Assembly (NCBI RefSeq): GCF_947492365.1
Contig: NZ_CANLMB010000001.1
Coordinates: 868,001-932,000 of the forward strand
DNA from: an uncultured Erythrobacter sp.
GTDB taxonomy: Bacteria; Pseudomonadota; Alphaproteobacteria; Sphingomonadales; Sphingomonadaceae
Direction of reading: 5' to 3'
Length of the DNA stretch: 64,000 nucleotides
In this document: positions 23,812-33,012 of the stretch, piece after piece
Layout: every line of letters begins with the position of its first letter
How positions within the stretch are numbered: position 1 is the stretch's first letter
The notes under the pieces: generated by a model
Database searches by the model: none
Seen by the model: the letters and a program-made list of their open reading frames with translations, nothing else
What the model was told of the DNA's origin: nothing
Made by a program: the position numbers and the translations under genes

Positions 23812-24594
23812 ATGACCCTATCTCCCCTTTCGCCTCAAATAGACCGCCTCCTCTCAATCATGGCGCGTCTGCGCGATCCCAAGCGAGGTTGCGAATGGGA
23901 TGTCGCGCAGACTTTTGAAACTATCGCACCCTATACAATCGAAGAAGCCTACGAAGTTTCCGACGCTATCGAACGCCAGGATATGGACGAACTGCGCGGC
24001 GAGCTCGGTGACCTGCTGCTCCAAGTCGTCTTCCATGCGCGTATGGCTGAGGAAGCTGGTCATTTTGCCTTCGAAGACGTCGCGCGATCGATCAGCGACA
24101 AGATGGAAGCGCGGCACCCGCACATCTTCGGCTCAGAAACAGGTGTGATGGATGGTAAACGCTGGGAGGACATCAAAGCCAGTGAACGCGCAGATACCGG
24201 TGCTAAGAGCGCCATGGACGGCGTTGCTCAGGCCCTCCCGGCACTGATGCGGTCAGAGAAGTTGCAAAAGCGCGCCGCGCGCGTCGGGTTTGAATGGCAT
24301 GATGTCAAAGGTCCTCGCGACAAGCTCTTGGAAGAACTCGAAGAATTGGAAGAAGCCAGCGAAGACGAAAAACTCGTTGAAGCGGGCGATGTGTTGTTCG
24401 TCGCCGTCAATATCGTGCGTCGGTATGGAGTTGATGCCGAACAGGCGCTCAAAGCGTCGAACGCAAAATTCGAGCGGCGTTTCCGGCAAATGGAGGAGCT
24501 AGCTGCCGCAGATGGCGCGGATTTCGAAGCGCTTTCGCTCGATGAGCAGGAAGGCTACTGGCAGCGGGTAAAGAAAAACGAAAAAGCCTTTTAA
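23812..24594 (+). CDS. mazG: Nucleoside triphosphate pyrophosphohydrolase MazG
   Basis: Hydrolyses (d)NTPs to monophosphates and pyrophosphate, a house-cleaning enzyme. Two tandem MazG domains are visible. The first begins LRDPKRGCEWDVAQTFETIAPYTIEEAYEV and has the metal motif EExxE with ELGDLLLQVVFH. The second covers about 160-230 with KLLEELEELEEA and EAGDVLFVAVNIVRR. 260 residues is the normal length. It converges with hflX (8 bases between stops). Confidence 0.93.
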   Translation: MTLSPLSPQIDRLLSIMARLRDPKRGCEWDVAQTFETIAPYTIEEAYEVSDAIERQDMDELRGELGDLLLQVVFHARMAEEAGHFAFEDVARSISDKMEARHPHIFGSETGVMDGKRWEDIKASERADTGAKSAMDGVAQALPALMRSEKLQKRAARVGFEWHDVKGPRDKLLEELEELEEASEDEKLVEAGDVLFVAVNIVRRYGVDAEQALKASNAKFERRFRQMEELAAADGADFEALSLDEQEGYWQRVKKNEKAF

Positions 24595-24602
24595 ATTCAA
24601 AA

Positions 24603-25904
24603 TCAAAGCGTCGAATATTGACCCAATTCCTTCGGGTTGAGGCGGACAGTCAAGCGCCTCAAAGGACCCTGCTCCCCTTCCCCTGCATCTTCCTCTTCCA
24701 AGACATCGCCATGCGCATGCAGCCACGCAATTCGGCGGCCATCTGATACGGGCAAAGTCACCGTGACTTCGCTCGCCTTTGTGGTGAGCATCTGCCCGGT
24801 CTTTTCTGCGAAATCGTCAATCCCGTCACCCAACGCTGCCGAAACAAGCACAGCTTCTTGCGCGCTTGCGGCTTCTTTCAGCGCCTCGAGCCGGTCTGGA
24901 TCAAGTAGATCGGCCTTGTTCCACACTTCGAGGATCGGGATATCGCTTGTGCCAGTTGCGCCGTCGATAACGCCAAGATCGGCAAGCACTTCCATCACCT
25001 GCTTCTTTTGCGCGGCATGAGCCGGATTGGCCATGTCACGCACGTGGCAGATGATGTCAGCCCCGGTGACTTCTTCCAGCGTTGCGCGGAATGCTGCGAC
25101 AAGCTGAGTTGGCAGATCGGAGATGAAGCCAACGGTGTCGGATAAGATTGCCTTCTCGACACCGGGCAGACTGATTGCGCGCATTGTTGGGTCAAGCGTG
25201 GCGAAAAGCAGGTCTTCAGCCATGACCTCTGCACCGGTCAAGCGATTGAACAAAGTGGACTTTCCGGCGTTGGTGTAGCCAACTAACGCGATCACGGGCC
25301 AGGGTGCCCTTCCCCGCCGTTCACGGTGCAAAGTGCGGGTCTTGCGAACCTGTTCAAGCTCTCGGCGAAGGCGTCCCATCCGTTGACGGATCATCCGCCG
25401 ATCGGCCTCGATCTGTGTCTCACCCGGACCGCCAAGAAAGCCGAATCCGCCGCGTTGGCGCTCAAGGTGGGTCCAACTGCGCACAAGGCGGCTTTGCTGG
25501 TAGTCGAGATGCGCAAGTTCGACCTGCAAGCGGCCTTCAGCGGTCGCTGCGCGCTCACCGAAGATTTCAAGGATCAGGCCGGTTCGGTCGATCACCTTGC
25601 GCTTGAGCCGGTCCTCGAGGTTGCGTTGCTGGATCGGCGAGAGCGCGCCATCAACGATGACCAGCTCGCACTCATATTGCTCGCACCAGATCTTGATATT
25701 CTCGACCTGACCTGATCCGAACAGCGTGTTGGGCTGCATCTGGCGGATCGGCAGAACCGTCGAATGCTCAATCTCCACACCGATCGCGAGCGCCAGACCT
25801 TCAGCCTCCGCTAGACGATCCTTTGCATCAAGATCGTAGCGGAAGCTCCTGATATCAGGGCACAAGACCAGGCTTCGCGCACCGCGCGTTACCTCGTCCA
25901 TCAA
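24603..25904 (-). CDS. hflX: GTPase HflX
   Basis: Ribosome-associated GTPase that rescues or splits stalled ribosomes. An N-terminal HflX domain with a coiled linker (residues about 1-195, GGFGFLGGPGETQIEADRR at its end) precedes the G domain: G1 GYTNAGKST, G3 DTVGF, G4 NKAD. Its 433 residues are typical. It is downstream of hfq with 14 bases between them, the arrangement found in many proteobacteria, so the two are probably one transcript. Confidence 0.94.
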   Translation of the reverse strand: MMDEVTRGARSLVLCPDIRSFRYDLDAKDRLAEAEGLALAIGVEIEHSTVLPIRQMQPNTLFGSGQVENIKIWCEQYECELVIVDGALSPIQQRNLEDRLKRKVIDRTGLILEIFGERAATAEGRLQVELAHLDYQQSRLVRSWTHLERQRGGFGFLGGPGETQIEADRRMIRQRMGRLRRELEQVRKTRTLHRERRGRAPWPVIALVGYTNAGKSTLFNRLTGAEVMAEDLLFATLDPTMRAISLPGVEKAILSDTVGFISDLPTQLVAAFRATLEEVTGADIICHVRDMANPAHAAQKKQVMEVLADLGVIDGATGTSDIPILEVWNKADLLDPDRLEALKEAASAQEAVLVSAALGDGIDDFAEKTGQMLTTKASEVTVTLPVSDGRRIAWLHAHGDVLEEEDAGEGEQGPLRRLTVRLNPKELGQYSTL

Positions 25905-25918
25905 TGTTTCATCGAAGC

Positions 25919-26509
25919 TCAGTAGTCGGTCCCGAAATCGTCGGCGTCGTCATCTTCGTCTACATCCTCGCCATCATCGCCGGACAGATCGACAGGACTC
26001 GCGGGTTGGATTGTCGAAACGGCATGTTTGTAAGCAAGCTGCACCGCGCCATCGCGTTCGAGCAGCATGCAGAACAGATCATAGGCTGCGATCCGCCCTT
26101 GCAGCATCACGCCGTTTACGAGGAACATGGTCACTTGAACGCCGGCATCGCTCACCCGGCTGAGGAAGACATCCTGCAGTTGGCGCTGCTTGTGTTTGCC
26201 GCCGCGATTTCCAAACTGTTCGGCATCGACCGGCCCGCTGGGCATAATGGTCGAGATCGCGTGCTTATAGACCAGCTGCGACTGGCCATCGCGCCGCAAA
26301 AGGATCGAAAAATTATCGAACCAGGTGACAATACCCTGAAGTTTAACGCCTTTTACAAGGAACATCGTCACCGGAACCTTGTTCTTGCGCAAAAGGTTCA
26401 GGAAGGCGTCCTGAAGATTTCCCTGCCGCGCTGCACTGGATCCGGCGCTGCTGCCTTGATCGGCGTCGGGGCTCCGAGGGCGCGGAGAGAGAGTTCGCCC
26501 ATTGGACAT
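25919..26509 (-). CDS. hfq: Tandem-domain Hfq RNA chaperone
   Basis: RNA-binding Sm-like chaperone for small RNAs, here with two complete Hfq domains in one 196-residue chain instead of one in about 80-100 residues. Repeat 1 spans about 30-94, repeat 2 about 109-173, followed by an acidic tail (174-196). Both keep the proximal-site signature YKHA(I/V)ST (K82-H83, K161-H162), LQD and the stacking Phe (F67, F146). The basic rim patch is kept in repeat 1 (RKNK, 41-44) and lost in repeat 2 (SDAG, 120-123). A 29-residue Ser/Arg-rich N-terminus precedes repeat 1. AGGAG lies upstream of the ATG. It is located between ntrX and hflX. Confidence 0.93.
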
Positions 26510-26689
26510 ATTATGCTCCTGTTTATTGGCGGCCGTCCTTACGGTCCGCGATATCGCTACACTCGCGCCGTTCCGCGATGTGAAGCTCGACCAGCATAAT
26601 GGCGCGTGCTGGCCGCACTCGCAACGCTAGAATTTCTTCCAATCGACGAGCGTCATATTGTTACGGCGAATAACGCGCGGACTTGGATG

Positions 26690-28081
26690 TTATCGAGCCT
26701 TGCGCTCTGCTTCGCGCCGTTCGGCCATGCCAAGCAGCTTAAGCTTGCGATGAAGCGCAGACCTCTCCATCCCAATAAAGGTCGCTGTTTTGGAGATATT
26801 CCCCGAAAAACGGCGGATCTGGATGGTGAGGTATTCGCGTTCAAAGCTTTCGCGCGCCTCTCGCAAAGGCACGCCCATCATCGCAGTCAGCCCCTGCCCT
26901 GAAGCCGCAAGCCGCCCGCCCGTAATCTCGCCCGGTAGCATGTCGGTTTCGACCACGGTCAAACGTTCGCGCGGTGTCATGATGATCGTGCGCTCAACCA
27001 CATTGCGAAGCTGGCGAACATTTCCCGGCCAGTCATAGGCCTGAAGAGCAGCCATAGCTTCTTCTGAGATTTCGGGTGCTGGAAGGCCCTGGTCGGAGGA
27101 ATAGCGGGTGAAGAAATGCTCTGCCAATGCGGGGATATCGTCACGGCGCTCGGACAGTGAGGGGATCGAGACCGGCACAACATTCAGACGGTAGAACAGA
27201 TCTTCACGGAAGCGCTTCTCTTCCATCTCGGCTGCGAGATCGCGCGATGTGGAGGAGACCACGCGCACATCCACGCCGATCTGGCGGGTGCCGCCGACGC
27301 GGACAAAGCTCTGCTCGGTCAACACGCGCAAGATACGCGCCTGCGTCGACAAAGGCATATCGGCAACTTCATCGAGATAGAGAGTGCCGCCGTCAGCCAT
27401 TTCGAGGAGGCCCGGTCGAACCTGCTTGCCGTCCGCTTCCTCGCCAAACAGCTCCTGTTCAAAACGTTCGGGTGTGATGCGGGCCGAGTTGACGAGCACG
27501 AAGGCGCTGTCGGACCGATTACTCCATGAATGCAGCATCCGCGCGGCAACTTCCTTGCCCGCCCCTGCTGGTCCCGAAATTAGCACCCGGCTACCGGTAT
27601 TCGCCACGCGTTTGAGGGTCGCGCGGACCGCGTTGATCGCAGGCGAATTGCCGGTGAAATCGGCGCTTCCCCAGCTGGAATCGCGAAGCTGCGTGTTCTC
27701 GCGCCGCAGACGCTCGGTCTCGGTTGCACGCTCGACCAGCAGCAACAGCCGGGAGGCCTCGAACGGCTTCTCGATAAAGTCCATCGCCCCGCGCCCGACT
27801 GCCGACACGGCGGTGTCGATATTGCCATGACCGGAGAATATGATGACAGGCAGATCGGGCTCACGCTGCTTAATCGCGTCAAGCATTTCGAGCCCATCCA
27901 TATCGCTCCCGTGCAGCCAAACATCCAGGAGGACGAGGCTCGGCCGACGCTCGTCAATCGCAGCGAGCGCGCTGGTGCTGTCGGCGGCGGTGCGGCATTC
28001 ATAGCCTTCATCGCCAAGCACGCCGGCAACCAGTTCGCGAATATCGCGTTCATCATCGACTATCAGGATATCAAGCGCCAT
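26690..28081 (-). CDS. ntrX: NtrX-type response regulator lacking GAFTGA
   Basis: Response regulator paired with NtrY in nitrogen and redox signalling. Receiver domain (1-120, phosphoacceptor D53 in LVLLDVW), AAA+ domain with Walker A GPAGAGKE and Walker B TLYLDEVADM, and a Fis-type helix-turn-helix at the C-terminus (NISKTATFIGMERSALHRKLKLLG). The sigma54-contacting GAFTGA loop is absent: the FGxE segment passes directly to GKQVRPGLLEMADGG. It lies downstream of ntrY with a 72-base gap. Confidence 0.92.
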   Translation of the reverse strand: MALDILIVDDERDIRELVAGVLGDEGYECRTAADSTSALAAIDERRPSLVLLDVWLHGSDMDGLEMLDAIKQREPDLPVIIFSGHGNIDTAVSAVGRGAMDFIEKPFEASRLLLLVERATETERLRRENTQLRDSSWGSADFTGNSPAINAVRATLKRVANTGSRVLISGPAGAGKEVAARMLHSWSNRSDSAFVLVNSARITPERFEQELFGEEADGKQVRPGLLEMADGGTLYLDEVADMPLSTQARILRVLTEQSFVRVGGTRQIGVDVRVVSSTSRDLAAEMEEKRFREDLFYRLNVVPVSIPSLSERRDDIPALAEHFFTRYSSDQGLPAPEISEEAMAALQAYDWPGNVRQLRNVVERTIIMTPRERLTVVETDMLPGEITGGRLAASGQGLTAMMGVPLREARESFEREYLTIQIRRFSGNISKTATFIGMERSALHRKLKLLGMAERREAERKAR

Positions 28082-28153
28082 GCGCTACTCCTTGTGAGGG
28101 GATCGGTCCGCGGGGACCGTGAGGGGTTCGTTTGAAGTCGGTCTTGGGTGACA

Positions 28154-30400
28154 TCACGCTGGCTCGCAGCCGGGATCATCGGGCACTCTGGCAAAGCGCA
28201 ATGTGACACGCGTGCCGCCATCTGCGCCGCTGGCAAAGCTCATATCGCCGCCGTGCTCATCGACGATTTTGTTGACGATTGCGAGGCCCAGCCCCGTGCC
28301 CTTTTCTCGTGTGGTCACATAGGGTTCAACAATACGCTCCCGGTCAGAGGGCAGCCCGATGCCGTTATCCTCGACCATGATGGCGATACGGTCGCCATGG
28401 TCTTCCATCGTCACGCCGATCTTGCCGGAGAACTGCGCGTCTTCTTCGGCGGCGCGCGCTTCGACCGCTTCGACGGCGTTCTTGAGCACATTGGTCATCG
28501 CCTGACCAAGCTGGTGGCGGTCGCATTCGATCATGCGGTCGGAGAGGTCGTTTGCAGATACGCCAAATGCGATTTCGGAATGTGCAACTTCCTGCAGGAA
28601 CACCGCCTGCCGGACCAGGTCGAGCGCGTCCTCGTTGCGGAACACCGGCTTGGGCAGACGCGCAAACGAAGAGAATTCATCGACCATCTTGCGCAGATCA
28701 CCCACTTGCCGAACGATGGTGTTGGTAAGCTCGTCAAACAGCTCGCCATCCTCGACCTCGACCTGTTTGCGATAACGGCGCTTGAGCCGCTCGGTTGCAA
28801 GCTGGATTGGGGTGAGTGGGTTCTTGATCTCATGAGCGATCCGGCGGGCAACATCGGACCATGCTGCCTGTCTCTGATCGAGCAATTGGCGGGTGATGTC
28901 TTCGAAGGTGATGACATGGCCGCTGCTGCCTGGCGCAACCTTGACCGCAAGCGTTAGCAATTCGCCGTCTTTGGCATGGTTGACGATGGCCCGGTCCCTG
29001 CCCTCACTCACCATCTGGCAAATTTCGGGCGAGAGCGCGTCGAGGCCCTGCCCGCCGAAATCTTCGCCGAGGAGCCCTTGCGCGGAACTGTTCATCAGCA
29101 GAACCCGGCTTTCATCATCGACCGAGATTACACCTGCCGTGACCGATTCCAGCACCGCTTCCATAAAGGCGCGGCGATCGTCGATCTGGCGATTGGCGCT
29201 GACGAGAGCATCGGTCTGCTTTTCGAGTTGCGCGGTCATGCGGTTGAACGCGCGATTGAGTAGGCCAATCTCGTCCGCTCCGGTGCGACCTTCGACCCGT
29301 AGAGCAAAGTTGCCCTGCCCCACCTTGCGCGCAGCACCGACTAGATCAGTCAAAGGCTCAACCTGACGGTCGGCAAAGCGCAGGGCAAACCAAACCGCAA
29401 TCCCCACGAGCAGTAGGCTCATTGCGATCAAGGCGATGTTGAAGCGCAGTTGAAGTGTGCGGGCCTCTTCGGTCAGCGTCTCGTACGAGGCAGAGATCGA
29501 CTGTGCGATTTCCCATTGCTGGAACATCTCTTCTTCGGTTGTACGCGCATTGTAGAGATAGACACCGGTCTCGCGGTCAATCGGTGCAATCGCAGCGATC
29601 CGCTCGGCGCTGCCCTCCACCACGACAAATTCGCCAGCGTCAAGGCGTGCAAGTGCGGCCATGCTGAAGGCAAGAGGGCTGTTGTCTTCAAGCAGGTTCA
29701 TGATCGCGGCGGTTCGTAACGTGCCATCATCCATACGTTGGAGGATTGCGCTTTCAGAGATTTCGCGCCCCTGCGCCTGAAATGCATAGAAATCGGGGAA
29801 GTCAGGATCGGTGATCGGCACACGTCGGAGAATGTCACCCATATCGACAGCCATTGTGATCGTGTGCTGCTCTACGTCGCGCTGATTGGCGTCATAATAA
29901 CCTGCTGCCAGCGTGTTGGCGTTCTCCACCAACCCTCGAGAATCGTCGGAGAACCAAAACGCTACGCCCGTCTGGAATAGAAAGGCAGCGAAGCCTGCGA
30001 CCAGCAAGGTCGGCACTGCCGCAATGACCGAGAAGAAGAAAACGAGGCGCACATGCAGCCGCGCGGTGCTTCCGGCTGCACGCCGCAGAGCCATCCTGCG
30101 GCCAATCAACACGATTATCGCCAGCGCGGGCACCAAGACCGCCACCATCAGCAGCGAGACTTGCAAGGATGGCAGCCCGCCCGAATCTGCCGGTTGGCCG
30201 GAATAGGCAGCGTAATTCGCGCCCAAAGCAACAAGCAGCGCGATAATCGAGAGCACTTCTAGCCATATGAAGATGTTGGCGCGGCGCGAAGTGACTACAA
30301 ATTGTCGCCACCAGCGCGGGGACTGGCGCAACCCTGGACGCGCTCCGCCGGACGCCTCCGCGCCAAGATTCTCAGAGGGGGTCAGCGTGGTGCCTTCCAT
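28154..30400 (-). CDS. ntrY: Sensor histidine kinase NtrY
   Basis: Membrane-bound sensor kinase for NtrX. Three closely spaced helices near the N-terminus, a periplasmic domain of about 150 residues and a further helix (ALIAMSLLLVGIAVWFAL) lead into HAMP, PAS and HisKA domains. The phosphoacceptor histidine is in RRIAHEIKNPLTPIQLATERL; the ATP-binding domain has NVLKNAVEAVEAR, DNGIGLP and GTGLGLAIV. Its 748 residues match the family. A 20-base imperfect palindrome lies just upstream of the start. Confidence 0.93.
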   Translation of the reverse strand: MEGTTLTPSENLGAEASGGARPGLRQSPRWWRQFVVTSRRANIFIWLEVLSIIALLVALGANYAAYSGQPADSGGLPSLQVSLLMVAVLVPALAIIVLIGRRMALRRAAGSTARLHVRLVFFFSVIAAVPTLLVAGFAAFLFQTGVAFWFSDDSRGLVENANTLAAGYYDANQRDVEQHTITMAVDMGDILRRVPITDPDFPDFYAFQAQGREISESAILQRMDDGTLRTAAIMNLLEDNSPLAFSMAALARLDAGEFVVVEGSAERIAAIAPIDRETGVYLYNARTTEEEMFQQWEIAQSISASYETLTEEARTLQLRFNIALIAMSLLLVGIAVWFALRFADRQVEPLTDLVGAARKVGQGNFALRVEGRTGADEIGLLNRAFNRMTAQLEKQTDALVSANRQIDDRRAFMEAVLESVTAGVISVDDESRVLLMNSSAQGLLGEDFGGQGLDALSPEICQMVSEGRDRAIVNHAKDGELLTLAVKVAPGSSGHVITFEDITRQLLDQRQAAWSDVARRIAHEIKNPLTPIQLATERLKRRYRKQVEVEDGELFDELTNTIVRQVGDLRKMVDEFSSFARLPKPVFRNEDALDLVRQAVFLQEVAHSEIAFGVSANDLSDRMIECDRHQLGQAMTNVLKNAVEAVEARAAEEDAQFSGKIGVTMEDHGDRIAIMVEDNGIGLPSDRERIVEPYVTTREKGTGLGLAIVNKIVDEHGGDMSFASGADGGTRVTLRFARVPDDPGCEPA

Positions 30401-30410
30401 AGTTGCCTAG

Positions 30411-30430
30411 TTACAACGATAGTGTTGCAA
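30411..30430 (-). promoter_or_regulatory. Imperfect palindrome before ntrY
   Basis: TTACAAC (30411-30417), six bases, then GTTGCAA (30424-30430): arms match in six of seven positions. It ends 11 bases from the ntrY start, within the 70-base gap to ntrC. This could be an operator for separate control of ntrYX. No regulator can be assigned. Confidence 0.3.
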
Positions 30431-30470
30431 GGATGCAAGCTAAAAGTGACAAATAGGTCGCAGTTCTGCG

Positions 30471-31892
30471 TCAGGCCGGTCTCGCAAAGCGATCAGGTAC
30501 GATTCCGAGTTCATTGATCCGTTTGCGCAAGGTGTTGCGATTGATCCCGAGCAGCTTGGCCGCGCGCACTTGGTTGCCGCCGGTTACACCTAGTGCATGC
30601 TCGATCAGTGGCTTTTCGAATGCCGCCAATGCTGCTGCATAAACTGTCCCCGATGCCGGCACCTCTTTTGCAAGCCATTGGTCGAGCGCAGCACCGATCC
30701 CGCCCTCACCGCCCCCCTGTCCTGCAGCAAAGGCGGTGTCCTCGCCAAGGATGTCAGTCAGGCTCACCGCATCGATCAAGTCCTCGCGCGCCATCAGACA
30801 AAGGCGATAGATGACGTTGCGCAGTTCACGCACATTGCCCCGCCATGCGCGTTGCTCGAGCGCCTCGATGGCTCCGTGCGCGAGTTGGCGTCGAGGCAGA
30901 CCGTCTTCTGCAGCTTGCGCAAGGAAGTGCTGCGAAAGCACTTCGATATCCTCGCGGCGCTCGCGCAAAGGTGGCAGCTCGATGGGAACAACATTGAGCC
31001 GATAGAAAAGGTCCTCGCGAAATTCTCCTGCAGCAATCATCGGTGCAAGATCGCGGTTGGTTGCGGCGATGATCCGGACGTTGACCGCGATTTCCTGCCG
31101 TCCGCCAACGCGCCGGATCCGGCCTGACTGAAGCGCACGCAAGAGCCGTGTCTGGGCCTCCGCAGGCATGTCACCGATTTCGTCCAGAAACAGCGTGCCG
31201 CCATTGGCCTGCTCAAACTTACCGATCGCCTGCGCGATCGCGCCCGTGAACGCACCCTTTTCGTGCCCGAACAGCTCGCTTTCGATCAATTCGCGCGGGA
31301 TCGCGGCTGTGTTGACCGCAACAAAGGGGCCAGTGCGCCGCGCACCGAGCTGATGGATTGCTTCTGCGACGAGTTCTTTGCCTGTCCCGCTTTCTCCTGT
31401 GACGAGCACGGTGAGGTCGTTGCGCAGCACACGCGTAATCATCCGGTAGACGCCCTGCATCGCAGGGCTGCGCCCGACTAGCGGCATGCTTTCTTCAGGC
31501 CCAGGTTCAGAGATATCTGTGCTTGCAGCCCTCCCTCCAACCGCCTGAACCACCGCGCGCACGAGTTCATCGAGGTCGAAGGGTTTGGGGAAATACTCGA
31601 ATGCATCGCCCTCGCTCGCGCGCACTGCAGTGTCGAGTGTGTTTTGCGCAGACAGCACGATTACCGGCATGTCGGGCGCGGCGGAGCGCACAGAGGAAAG
31701 GCTCGCCAACCCGTCTCCATCTTCGAGCATGACGTCTGTGAGCATCGCGTCAAAGTCGCGTTCGAAAAGCAGGGCATCCCGCTCGGCTATTGATGCGCAC
31801 CGCAGGATTGCAAAACCCTCATCCTCCAGCGCAGCTGTAATAACCGCCACAATCGCGCTGTCATCTTCAACCAGGAGTATGGTGCCGGACAT
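30471..31892 (-). CDS. ntrC: Nitrogen regulation response regulator NtrC
   Basis: Sigma54-dependent enhancer-binding activator of nitrogen assimilation genes. Receiver domain (1-120, D53 in MLTDVML), AAA+ domain with Walker A GESGTGKE, the intact sigma54-contacting GAFTGA in [14 protein letters not shown] and Walker [11 protein letters not shown], and a Fis-type DNA-binding end ([20 protein letters not shown]). 473 residues. It follows ntrB by 10 bases. Confidence 0.95.
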
Positions 31893-31902
31893 GTGCGCGT
31901 TC

Positions 31903-33012
31903 CTAGGTTGAAGAAGCTTGGGGCGCGAGCGGGAGATGCACGCGGAAATGGGTAAAGCCGGATCGAGTGTCGCGTTCGTGGCTGATCGACCCGTTCATGT
32001 CGCGCACAAGCTTTCGCACCAAGGCAAGACCAAGCCCCTGCCCCGACTGCTTGGAAGAGATGAACGGTTCAAATATGTGATCACTGATCGCCGGGTCGAT
32101 GCCTGCACCATTGTCTGAAATAGTGATTTCGATCGGCAATTTAACCGCGCGGCCAAAACGAACCGCGCTAAAGGACAAACCGCTGGCAAACCGGGTCTGC
32201 ACGATCACTTCGCTACCCTCATTGTGCTCCGCAAGTGCGGCATCGCGGGCATTGGAAACAAGGTTGATTAGCACTTGCTCCAAAGCATCGCGATTGGCGA
32301 ACGCCGGTGGGAGCGAGGGGTCAAACGCCTCGCGAATATCCACTCCCTCGGCAGAGCCTGCTCGCACGGTTGCAATAGCAGAGCGGATCGCTTCATGCGG
32401 ATTGCAAGGCGCGGCCTCTTGTGTGGTCTGCGCACCCAACTCCTGCATCCGGTCAATCAACCGTGCGATCCGGTCGACCTCGTCTGTGATCATTACGGCG
32501 AGCTTTTTGTCGGCAGGCGGCAGTTTGCGAGCGGCCAATTGGCCTGCCCCGCGGATTGCGGCGAGCGGGTTCTTGATCTCGTGAGCAAGCACGGCCGGGG
32601 CGCTGACGGCTGCGATGGCCTCATCGCCGCGCGCCGCGTCGTCATGCACTGCTGACGCAAGAGTTACGACCCGCCAACCCGGGTGACTCCCAAGCGGAGA
32701 CATGGTGAGATTTATCCTCATATCGCCGCCGCGCACCGAGATATCGCGCGCGACCAGAGCTTCGTCCGCTTCGCTCAATCGCGCTTCGACACGCGGATCA
32801 ACCGGACCGAGAATTTCGAGCAGGCTCTTGCCGATCAGCCGGTTTGCGCTGATGCCAAGCAAACTCTCTGCCGAATAATTTGCCTGTGTAACTTGGCCGT
32901 TCGTGTCGACCAGCAATAGGGCAAAGACCAAACCCGCAATCTGCGTGTCGCCATCAGGCTGCGCGCTCTCTGTGCCGATTGTGCCGGACCCGCTGGCCAA
33001 ACTCGCGGCCAC
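31903..33012 (-). CDS. ntrB: Nitrogen regulation sensor kinase NtrB
   Basis: Cytosolic histidine kinase/phosphatase acting on NtrC and controlled by PII. PAS domain (about 25-120), then HisKA with the phosphoacceptor histidine in VLAHEIKNPLAAIRGAGQLA, and a HATPase domain with NLVSNARDAAL, DNGAGIDP and GQGLGLALV. No membrane segment is seen. 369 residues. It is 2 bases downstream of dusB. Confidence 0.94.
   Translation of the reverse strand: MAASLASGSGTIGTESAQPDGDTQIAGLVFALLLVDTNGQVTQANYSAESLLGISANRLIGKSLLEILGPVDPRVEARLSEADEALVARDISVRGGDMRINLTMSPLGSHPGWRVVTLASAVHDDAARGDEAIAAVSAPAVLAHEIKNPLAAIRGAGQLAARKLPPADKKLAVMITDEVDRIARLIDRMQELGAQTTQEAAPCNPHEAIRSAIATVRAGSAEGVDIREAFDPSLPPAFANRDALEQVLINLVSNARDAALAEHNEGSEVIVQTRFASGLSFSAVRFGRAVKLPIEITISDNGAGIDPAISDHIFEPFISSKQSGQGLGLALVRKLVRDMNGSISHERDTRSGFTHFRVHLPLAPQASST

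Follow-up and report, generated by a model that had tools for sequence, protein, structure and literature searches.

Hfq is the textbook homohexamer in which every protomer bears every RNA-binding face, and because all protomers are identical, one face is hard to change in some protomers alone. The hfq locus analyzed here, which lies in a 64,000-nucleotide stretch of Erythrobacter sp. DNA (the window), encodes two Hfq domains in one chain and raises the question of how the faces of the ring are shared out between them. Tandem Hfq of this kind is a natural experiment in which faces have been altered in part of the protomers, and it can test the number of rims, distal sites and tails that a functional ring requires.

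An earlier note on this DNA mentioned double-length Hfq in related sphingomonads, in agreement with Yang et al. (2010), the available text of which (PMC2877685) describes two Sm-like domains with separate predicted interaction sites in Zymomonas mobilis Hfq (ZMO0347) and likewise two-domain Hfq in six other Sphingomonadales species. A Z. mobilis hfq insertion mutant was reported there to tolerate inhibitors less, and the question of whether three chains suffice for a ring was already posed. The available text of that paper does not describe the position 28/31 exchange, a loss of rim residues from repeat 2 or the TLSxRP extension, all set out below; at 161 aa (PMC4004385), Z. mobilis Hfq is probably too short for the N-terminal extension. 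Searches of open-access literature turned up no published account of this exchange, of the loss at the rim or of a single origin. The two-domain architecture is already known, and the interest lies in its asymmetry.

The hfq reading frame of the window is intact, starts with ATG and is preceded by AGGAG (Table 1). The coordinates assigned to it in the earlier note are correct, with the gene on the minus strand; reading the plus strand gives an antisense frame only. PF17209 (Pfam) matches the protein in two stretches (E 3.7e-55; 183.8 bits against a cut-off of 27), TIGR02383 scores 173.2 bits against a cut-off of 61.7, and the 176-position equivalog model NF010691 (NCBIfam, PRK14091) scores 288 bits against a cut-off of 270 over residues 20-182. 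NF010691 is a family model of the tandem architecture, although it is named merely 'RNA chaperone Hfq', and the window protein fits nearly the whole of it. A search of the whole source genome placed both domains in one stop-free frame and gave no further Hfq match besides this pair. Two complete Hfq domains are thus present in one chain, as had been proposed, and the tandem hfq is the cell's sole Hfq. The antisense frame (231 codons, 25904-26599, plus strand) overlaps hfq and is taken as a probable by-product of codon use.

Table 1. Features of the tandem hfq locus, in window coordinates
Feature	Position	Strand	Basis
hflX (presumed), downstream of hfq	24603..25904	-	open reading frame; neighbour survey
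hfq, tandem two-domain RNA chaperone	25919..26509	-	196 aa plus stop; Pfam and NCBIfam matches
Acidic C-terminal tail, residues 175-196	25922..25987	-	protein sequence
Repeat 2 Sm domain, residues 110-174	25988..26182	-	alignment, structure superposition
M135 codon (E. coli position 31)	26105..26107	-	repeat 2: K 0/75, M 68/75
Repeat 2 rim site SDAG, residues 120-123	26141..26152	-	protein sequence, alignment
Inter-repeat linker, residues 96-109	26183..26224	-	sequence comparison
Repeat 1 Sm domain, residues 31-95	26225..26419	-	Pfam match, alignment, structure superposition
K53 codon (E. coli position 28)	26351..26353	-	lysine in 75/75 tandem repeat 1
Basic rim patch RKNK of repeat 1, residues 41-44	26378..26389	-	protein sequence, alignment
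N-terminal extension with TLSxRP motif (here TLSPRP), residues 1-30	26420..26509	-	motif count, 31/56 tandem proteins
ntrX-like response regulator (presumed), upstream of hfq	26690..28081	-	open reading frame; neighbour survey

Repeat 1 has a complete basic rim, the distal lysines K53 and K56 of the chain, and the proximal YKHA motif. Repeat 2 retains YKHA and has methionine at E. coli position 31 and a reduced rim; with S120, D121 and G123 at its rim residues, a basic rim is not found in every domain. The contrasts to which the earlier note drew attention, namely RKNK against SDAG and K56 against M135, are there as described, the latter pair falling at E. coli position 31, and its proximal motif YKHA(I/V)ST is present as YKHAIST and YKHAVST. 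That note overlooked K53, the TLSxRP motif and the fact that the loss of K31 is clade-wide. The stretch between position 64 of repeat 1 and position 8 of repeat 2, taken as the linker, measures 16-25 residues (median 21) in 56 tandem proteins.

Both repeats are predicted to adopt the Sm fold of solved Hfq, with an N-terminal helix and five strands. In an AlphaFold prediction of the single chain, both domains had pLDDT values of about 94-98, and the pTM was 0.74. Repeat 1 superposed on solved Hfq with a Z score of 10.0 (70 residues, rmsd 1.0) and repeat 2 with a Z score of 9.8 (69 residues, rmsd 1.4). No solved tandem Hfq was found among the 35 distinct structure matches, which were 63-114 residues long. 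The best-scoring solved structure by both sequence and fold was Caulobacter crescentus Hfq (PDB 6gwk), with which repeat 1 shares 77% identity in the structural alignment. Like the tandem protein it has an acidic tail; unlike it, it is a single-domain protein with a short N-terminus that forms a hexamer of identical chains. E. coli Hfq resembles the tandem protein at the proximal positions Q8, K56 and H57 and the distal positions Q33, Q52 and T61, but it has a single domain and bears N28, K31 and R16/R17/R19 in every protomer (sequence alignment with solved Hfq; PMC10628458, available text).

The distribution of tandem Hfq was surveyed in 297 genomes of the order, 236 from the window's family and 61 from other families, with matches counted by hand. 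Two Hfq matches were present in 225 of the 236 family genomes and one match in the other 11, whereas 59 of the 61 genomes from other families had one match and one had none. The remaining genome (L033/G001) had a second, partial match of 38 positions on a separate contig (C82), possibly a fragment or contamination. All 27 surveyed genomes of the window's genus, the source genome included, had two matches. Of 241 genomes surveyed across the class, 4 passed the NF010691 cut-off, and these all belonged to the window's family; none of the other 237 did, at a threshold that strongly diverged tandems could escape. Sequences were compared in 75 of the 225 two-match family genomes (56 plus 19, with the duplicate loci L002 and L014 dropped from the 56-protein set), the remainder being counted by matches alone, and both domains lay within one open reading frame in all 75.

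Two domains in one frame were also found in 80 of 80 loci from named relatives. These loci ranked highest among at least 595 matches, were found by patterns including KGVKLQG, and may share some species with the survey genomes. Within this set, tandem Hfq occurs in Erythrobacter, Qipengyuania, Tsuneonella, Aurantiacibacter, Croceibacterium, Novosphingobium, Sphingobium, Sphingomonas, Blastomonas, Sphingorhabdus and Hephaestia. A frameshift or assembly error separating the domains, or a chimeric gene, the outcomes that the earlier note had named as fatal to its reading, can be dismissed: the frame is single and open in 75/75 family genomes and 80/80 named loci, the gene order is kept in 55/56 loci, every genome of the genus has two matches, and 10 single-domain family members lie outside the tandem clade.

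That clade was defined with a protein tree of the two flanking genes, hflX and ntrX, in which the tandem loci formed one clade (55/55, support 100/99), and 10 single-domain family members and one outgroup fell outside it. The tree held 66 of 100 loci; the 34 loci without an ntrX match in the compared flank, including one tandem locus (L034), were left out, and L092 and the outgroup L100 were both flagged as long. It included 10 of the 11 single-domain family members, G222 being absent. In a quick tree of hflX alone (100 loci), resolution was too poor for a decision; two changes were required, of which the starred branches forced just one. Since the single-domain members lie outside the tandem clade, one duplication explains the distribution of tandem Hfq. 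Reversion of these members to a single domain is not favored: all 10 are outside the clade, they retain N28 and K31, and their tails are mostly LFE/LFD-like, resembling single Hfq tails in other families. Because the usual residues and, mostly, the usual tail are kept, they look ancestral rather than reverted. Collectively, these sequence comparisons indicate that the tandem fusion arose once inside the family.

Recent gene conversion between the repeats was also rejected, since the identity of repeat 1 to repeat 2 was 0.586 both within and between proteins (51 proteins), as expected of copies that evolve apart. The direction in which they have done so was examined by counting residues, in E. 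coli numbering, in 44 single Hfq and 75 tandem proteins. Position 28 is asparagine in 44/44 singles and in 74/75 second repeats, and lysine in 75/75 first repeats. Position 31 is lysine in 44/44 singles and lysine (66) or arginine (9) in the 75 first repeats, whereas in repeat 2 it is methionine in 68/75 and lysine in 0/75. All seven exceptions in repeat 2 (A in three, R in two, L and S in one each) belong to a diverged subgroup of one genus. In the named loci, N28 and M31 of repeat 2, neither of which was chosen by the search patterns, were found in 80/80; K28 of repeat 1 was also found in 80/80, a count that is not independent evidence because the patterns include KGVKLQG. At the second adenine site, N28 forms a contact through water, and the neighbouring protomer supplies T61, L26, I30 and Y25 (PMC10628458, available text). 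With these residues drawn from the adjacent protomer, a ring of alternating repeats would have two kinds of distal pocket.

The rim is the second face to differ. Positions 16, 17 and 19 are all basic in 44/44 singles and 69/75 first repeats, but in only 1/75 second repeats. The rim loss claimed for this gene is therefore real, yet it is not special to it, as the repeat 2 rim is reduced in 74/75 tandem relatives. A basic rim is typical of Gram-negative Hfq and is not a requirement of the family. None or one of the three basic residues is kept in 60/75 second repeats and two in 14/75; in the 80 named loci the corresponding counts are 51 with none or one, 28 with two and one with three. The loss is thus partial for a good share of tandems. 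Since the rim patch is also less conserved in Gram-positive Hfq (PMC10628458, available text), its reduction lowers the functional equivalence of repeat 2 but not its membership of the family. At the proximal site, K56 and H57 are both present in 75/75 second repeats, and repeat 1 has K56 in 75/75 and H57 in 71/75. In sequence terms, the proximal site has been doubled and retained, the rim has been weakened by roughly half and the distal lysine has been relocated.

One way to account for these changes is a neutral ratchet, in which drift after the fusion led to complementary losses and left ring function unchanged. The distal lysines fit this explanation: each protomer pair still has two lysines at positions 28 and 31, repeat 1 having gained one and repeat 2 lost one, and both the gain of K28 and the loss of K31 are nearly fixed across the clade and seen in 0/44 singles, as would be expected if two changes that compensate each other had occurred on the stem of the clade. 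However, the rim is uncompensated, with six basic residues per protomer pair falling to four or fewer in most tandems (60/75). This explanation overlaps in part with the alternating ring proposed below, and as an account of its own we consider it rather unlikely.

To evaluate constraint on the two repeats, pooled pN/pS was compared among five species of the window's genus. These values, raw proportions at a high number of synonymous changes per site, were 0.120 for repeat 1 and 0.119 for repeat 2, against 0.33 for the linker, 0.40 for the tail and 0.61 for the N-terminal extension. Both repeats are thus under similar purifying selection in this genus. Across the clade, mean identity was lower for repeat 2 than for repeat 1 (0.75 versus 0.87; 51 tandem proteins), as was identity to the family's single Hfq (0.63 versus 0.80; 51 tandem and 9 single proteins); these means cover 51 of the 56 tandems, with five diverged ones set apart, and 9 of the 10 single family members. 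Such divergence, together with the missing rim and distal lysine, is what a decaying repeat 2 would look like, kept in a structural role or none while ordinary Hfq function rested on repeat 1. This reading is improbable, as the two repeats have equal pN/pS in the genus, K56 and H57 of repeat 2 are invariant while H57 of repeat 1 is not, and the two-gene tree requires no repeat loss among the loci that it contains. Repeat 2 varies more across the clade, yet within the genus it is not decaying.

A single fusion followed by a division of labor between the copies points instead to a putative three-chain pseudo-hexamer in which the repeats alternate, a reading that we hold with a probability of about 0.62. 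Three chains would close one Sm ring of three-fold symmetry, with repeats 1 and 2 in alternation, as the earlier note had also suggested together with an altered geometry of sRNA-mRNA pairing. All six proximal pockets would be usable for the U-rich 3' ends of sRNAs, the distal lysines and the basic rim that is active in annealing would be concentrated at the three repeat 1 positions, and the role of repeat 2 would be to offer a proximal pocket and to act as a scaffold. Just three acidic tails, exiting from repeat 2, would compete with RNA for three full rims. Such a ring would be expected to have about half the usual valence at the rim and, on its distal face, an A-rich track of alternating stronger and weaker steps. 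We infer the stoichiometry, the alternation and the consequences for RNA; from the reported roles of rim and tails, annealing-active repeat 1 protomers would alternate with proximal-only repeat 2 protomers, with three tails per ring.

The roles of position 28 and of the rim are described in PMC10628458 (available text), and the accessible part of a preprint (PMC12262471) reports that the rim of E. coli Hfq plays an important part in annealing and in the yield of captured RNA pairs. In that work, R16A in the rim almost abolished captured RNA pairs and kept partial regulation, and K31A lowered captured pairs almost 4-fold with a mild effect on regulation; given this mild effect, the change of K31 to methionine may matter little. 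The eukaryotic Sm/Lsm hetero-rings, which also serve as background in PMC2877685, likewise contain non-identical Sm protomers, but these are separate polypeptides and number seven. If the fullest form of this model, given below, is correct, the class I/class II sRNA rules of E. coli would be altered predictably in this family, and the conserved division of labor makes the ring question of 2010 testable.

The same chain could in principle build stacked or linked rings, in which six chains would tie a repeat 1 hexamer, as a basic annealing ring, to a neutral hexamer of repeat 2. Either repeat alone makes a complete predicted Hfq fold, the linkers might reach between rings, and a homotypic ring was presumably ancestral because the relatives outside the tandem clade are single-domain. 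However, a pTM of 0.74 on 196 residues is higher than expected for one domain of about 65 residues, so the predictor seems to fix the two domains relative to each other. We regard stacked rings as unlikely.

An N-terminal extension of 24-39 residues with TLSxRP near its start is present in 31 of the 56 tandem proteins (L and R in 31/31, T in 30/31, S in 28/31 and P in 27/31; median net charge +3), and these 31 proteins form exactly one clade of the hflX and ntrX tree. The pattern occurs in 45 of the 80 named loci, on the Erythrobacter-Novosphingobium side, with two further variants (L106, L129). The usual Hfq N-terminal extension has about four residues (PMC6561178, available text). As a guess, the longer one may act as a basic arm close to the proximal face, where it might touch RNA or the acidic tail. 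The tail itself has a median net charge of -6 in 51 tandem proteins, against -4 in the 44 singles; in Caulobacter Hfq, acidic tips dock onto basic rim residues, and such tips compete with RNA for the rim (PMC6561178, available text). The fullest form of the model, in which most of the family would have exchanged the homohexamer for an obligate three-fold hetero-ring made from a fused duplicate, with rim-dependent annealing at alternate protomers, relocated distal lysines, three tails and, in a subclade, a basic N-terminal motif near the proximal face, is put forward tentatively, at somewhat less than even odds.

One genus (g12) departs from this pattern. In 9 of its 25 genomes (L058-L062, L198-L201) the tandem Hfq is strongly diverged and shorter, at about 140 aa, with an ambiguous start position in L201; the remaining 16 genomes have tandems of ordinary length. 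The diverged versions carry arginine at position 31 of repeat 1 in all eight that were fully compared, and M31 is missing from repeat 2 in seven of nine, two of the seven carrying arginine there. Their rims are less regular, and in the five measured the tails are short and nearly neutral. The asymmetry is thus not obligatory everywhere, and the pairing of irregular rims with near-neutral tails fits a link between tail and rim, though in one lineage.

The gene downstream of hfq is presumably hflX, as an HflX-type GTPase gene adjoining hfq, and its start is more likely the ATG at 25901, 17 bases past the hfq stop. The upstream gene is presumably ntrX-like, from the ntrX-hfq-hflX order; where flanks were compared, both neighbours were present in 55 of 56 tandem loci. 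The gap between ntrX and hfq is 180 bases (26510-26689). No Rfam match above the gathering score was found in 24000-32000, and scans for promoters and terminators gave scores near shuffle level. The 5' UTR of Z. mobilis hfq has been reported to be regulatory (PMC5770649, available text). In plasmid and phage records, no site covered 80% of the query. An 880-kb record of Sphingomonas parapaucimobilis (NZ_CP155749.1), filed as a plasmid, gave a 471-base match to both domains, within one annotated hfq. A tandem hfq can thus occupy a second large replicon.
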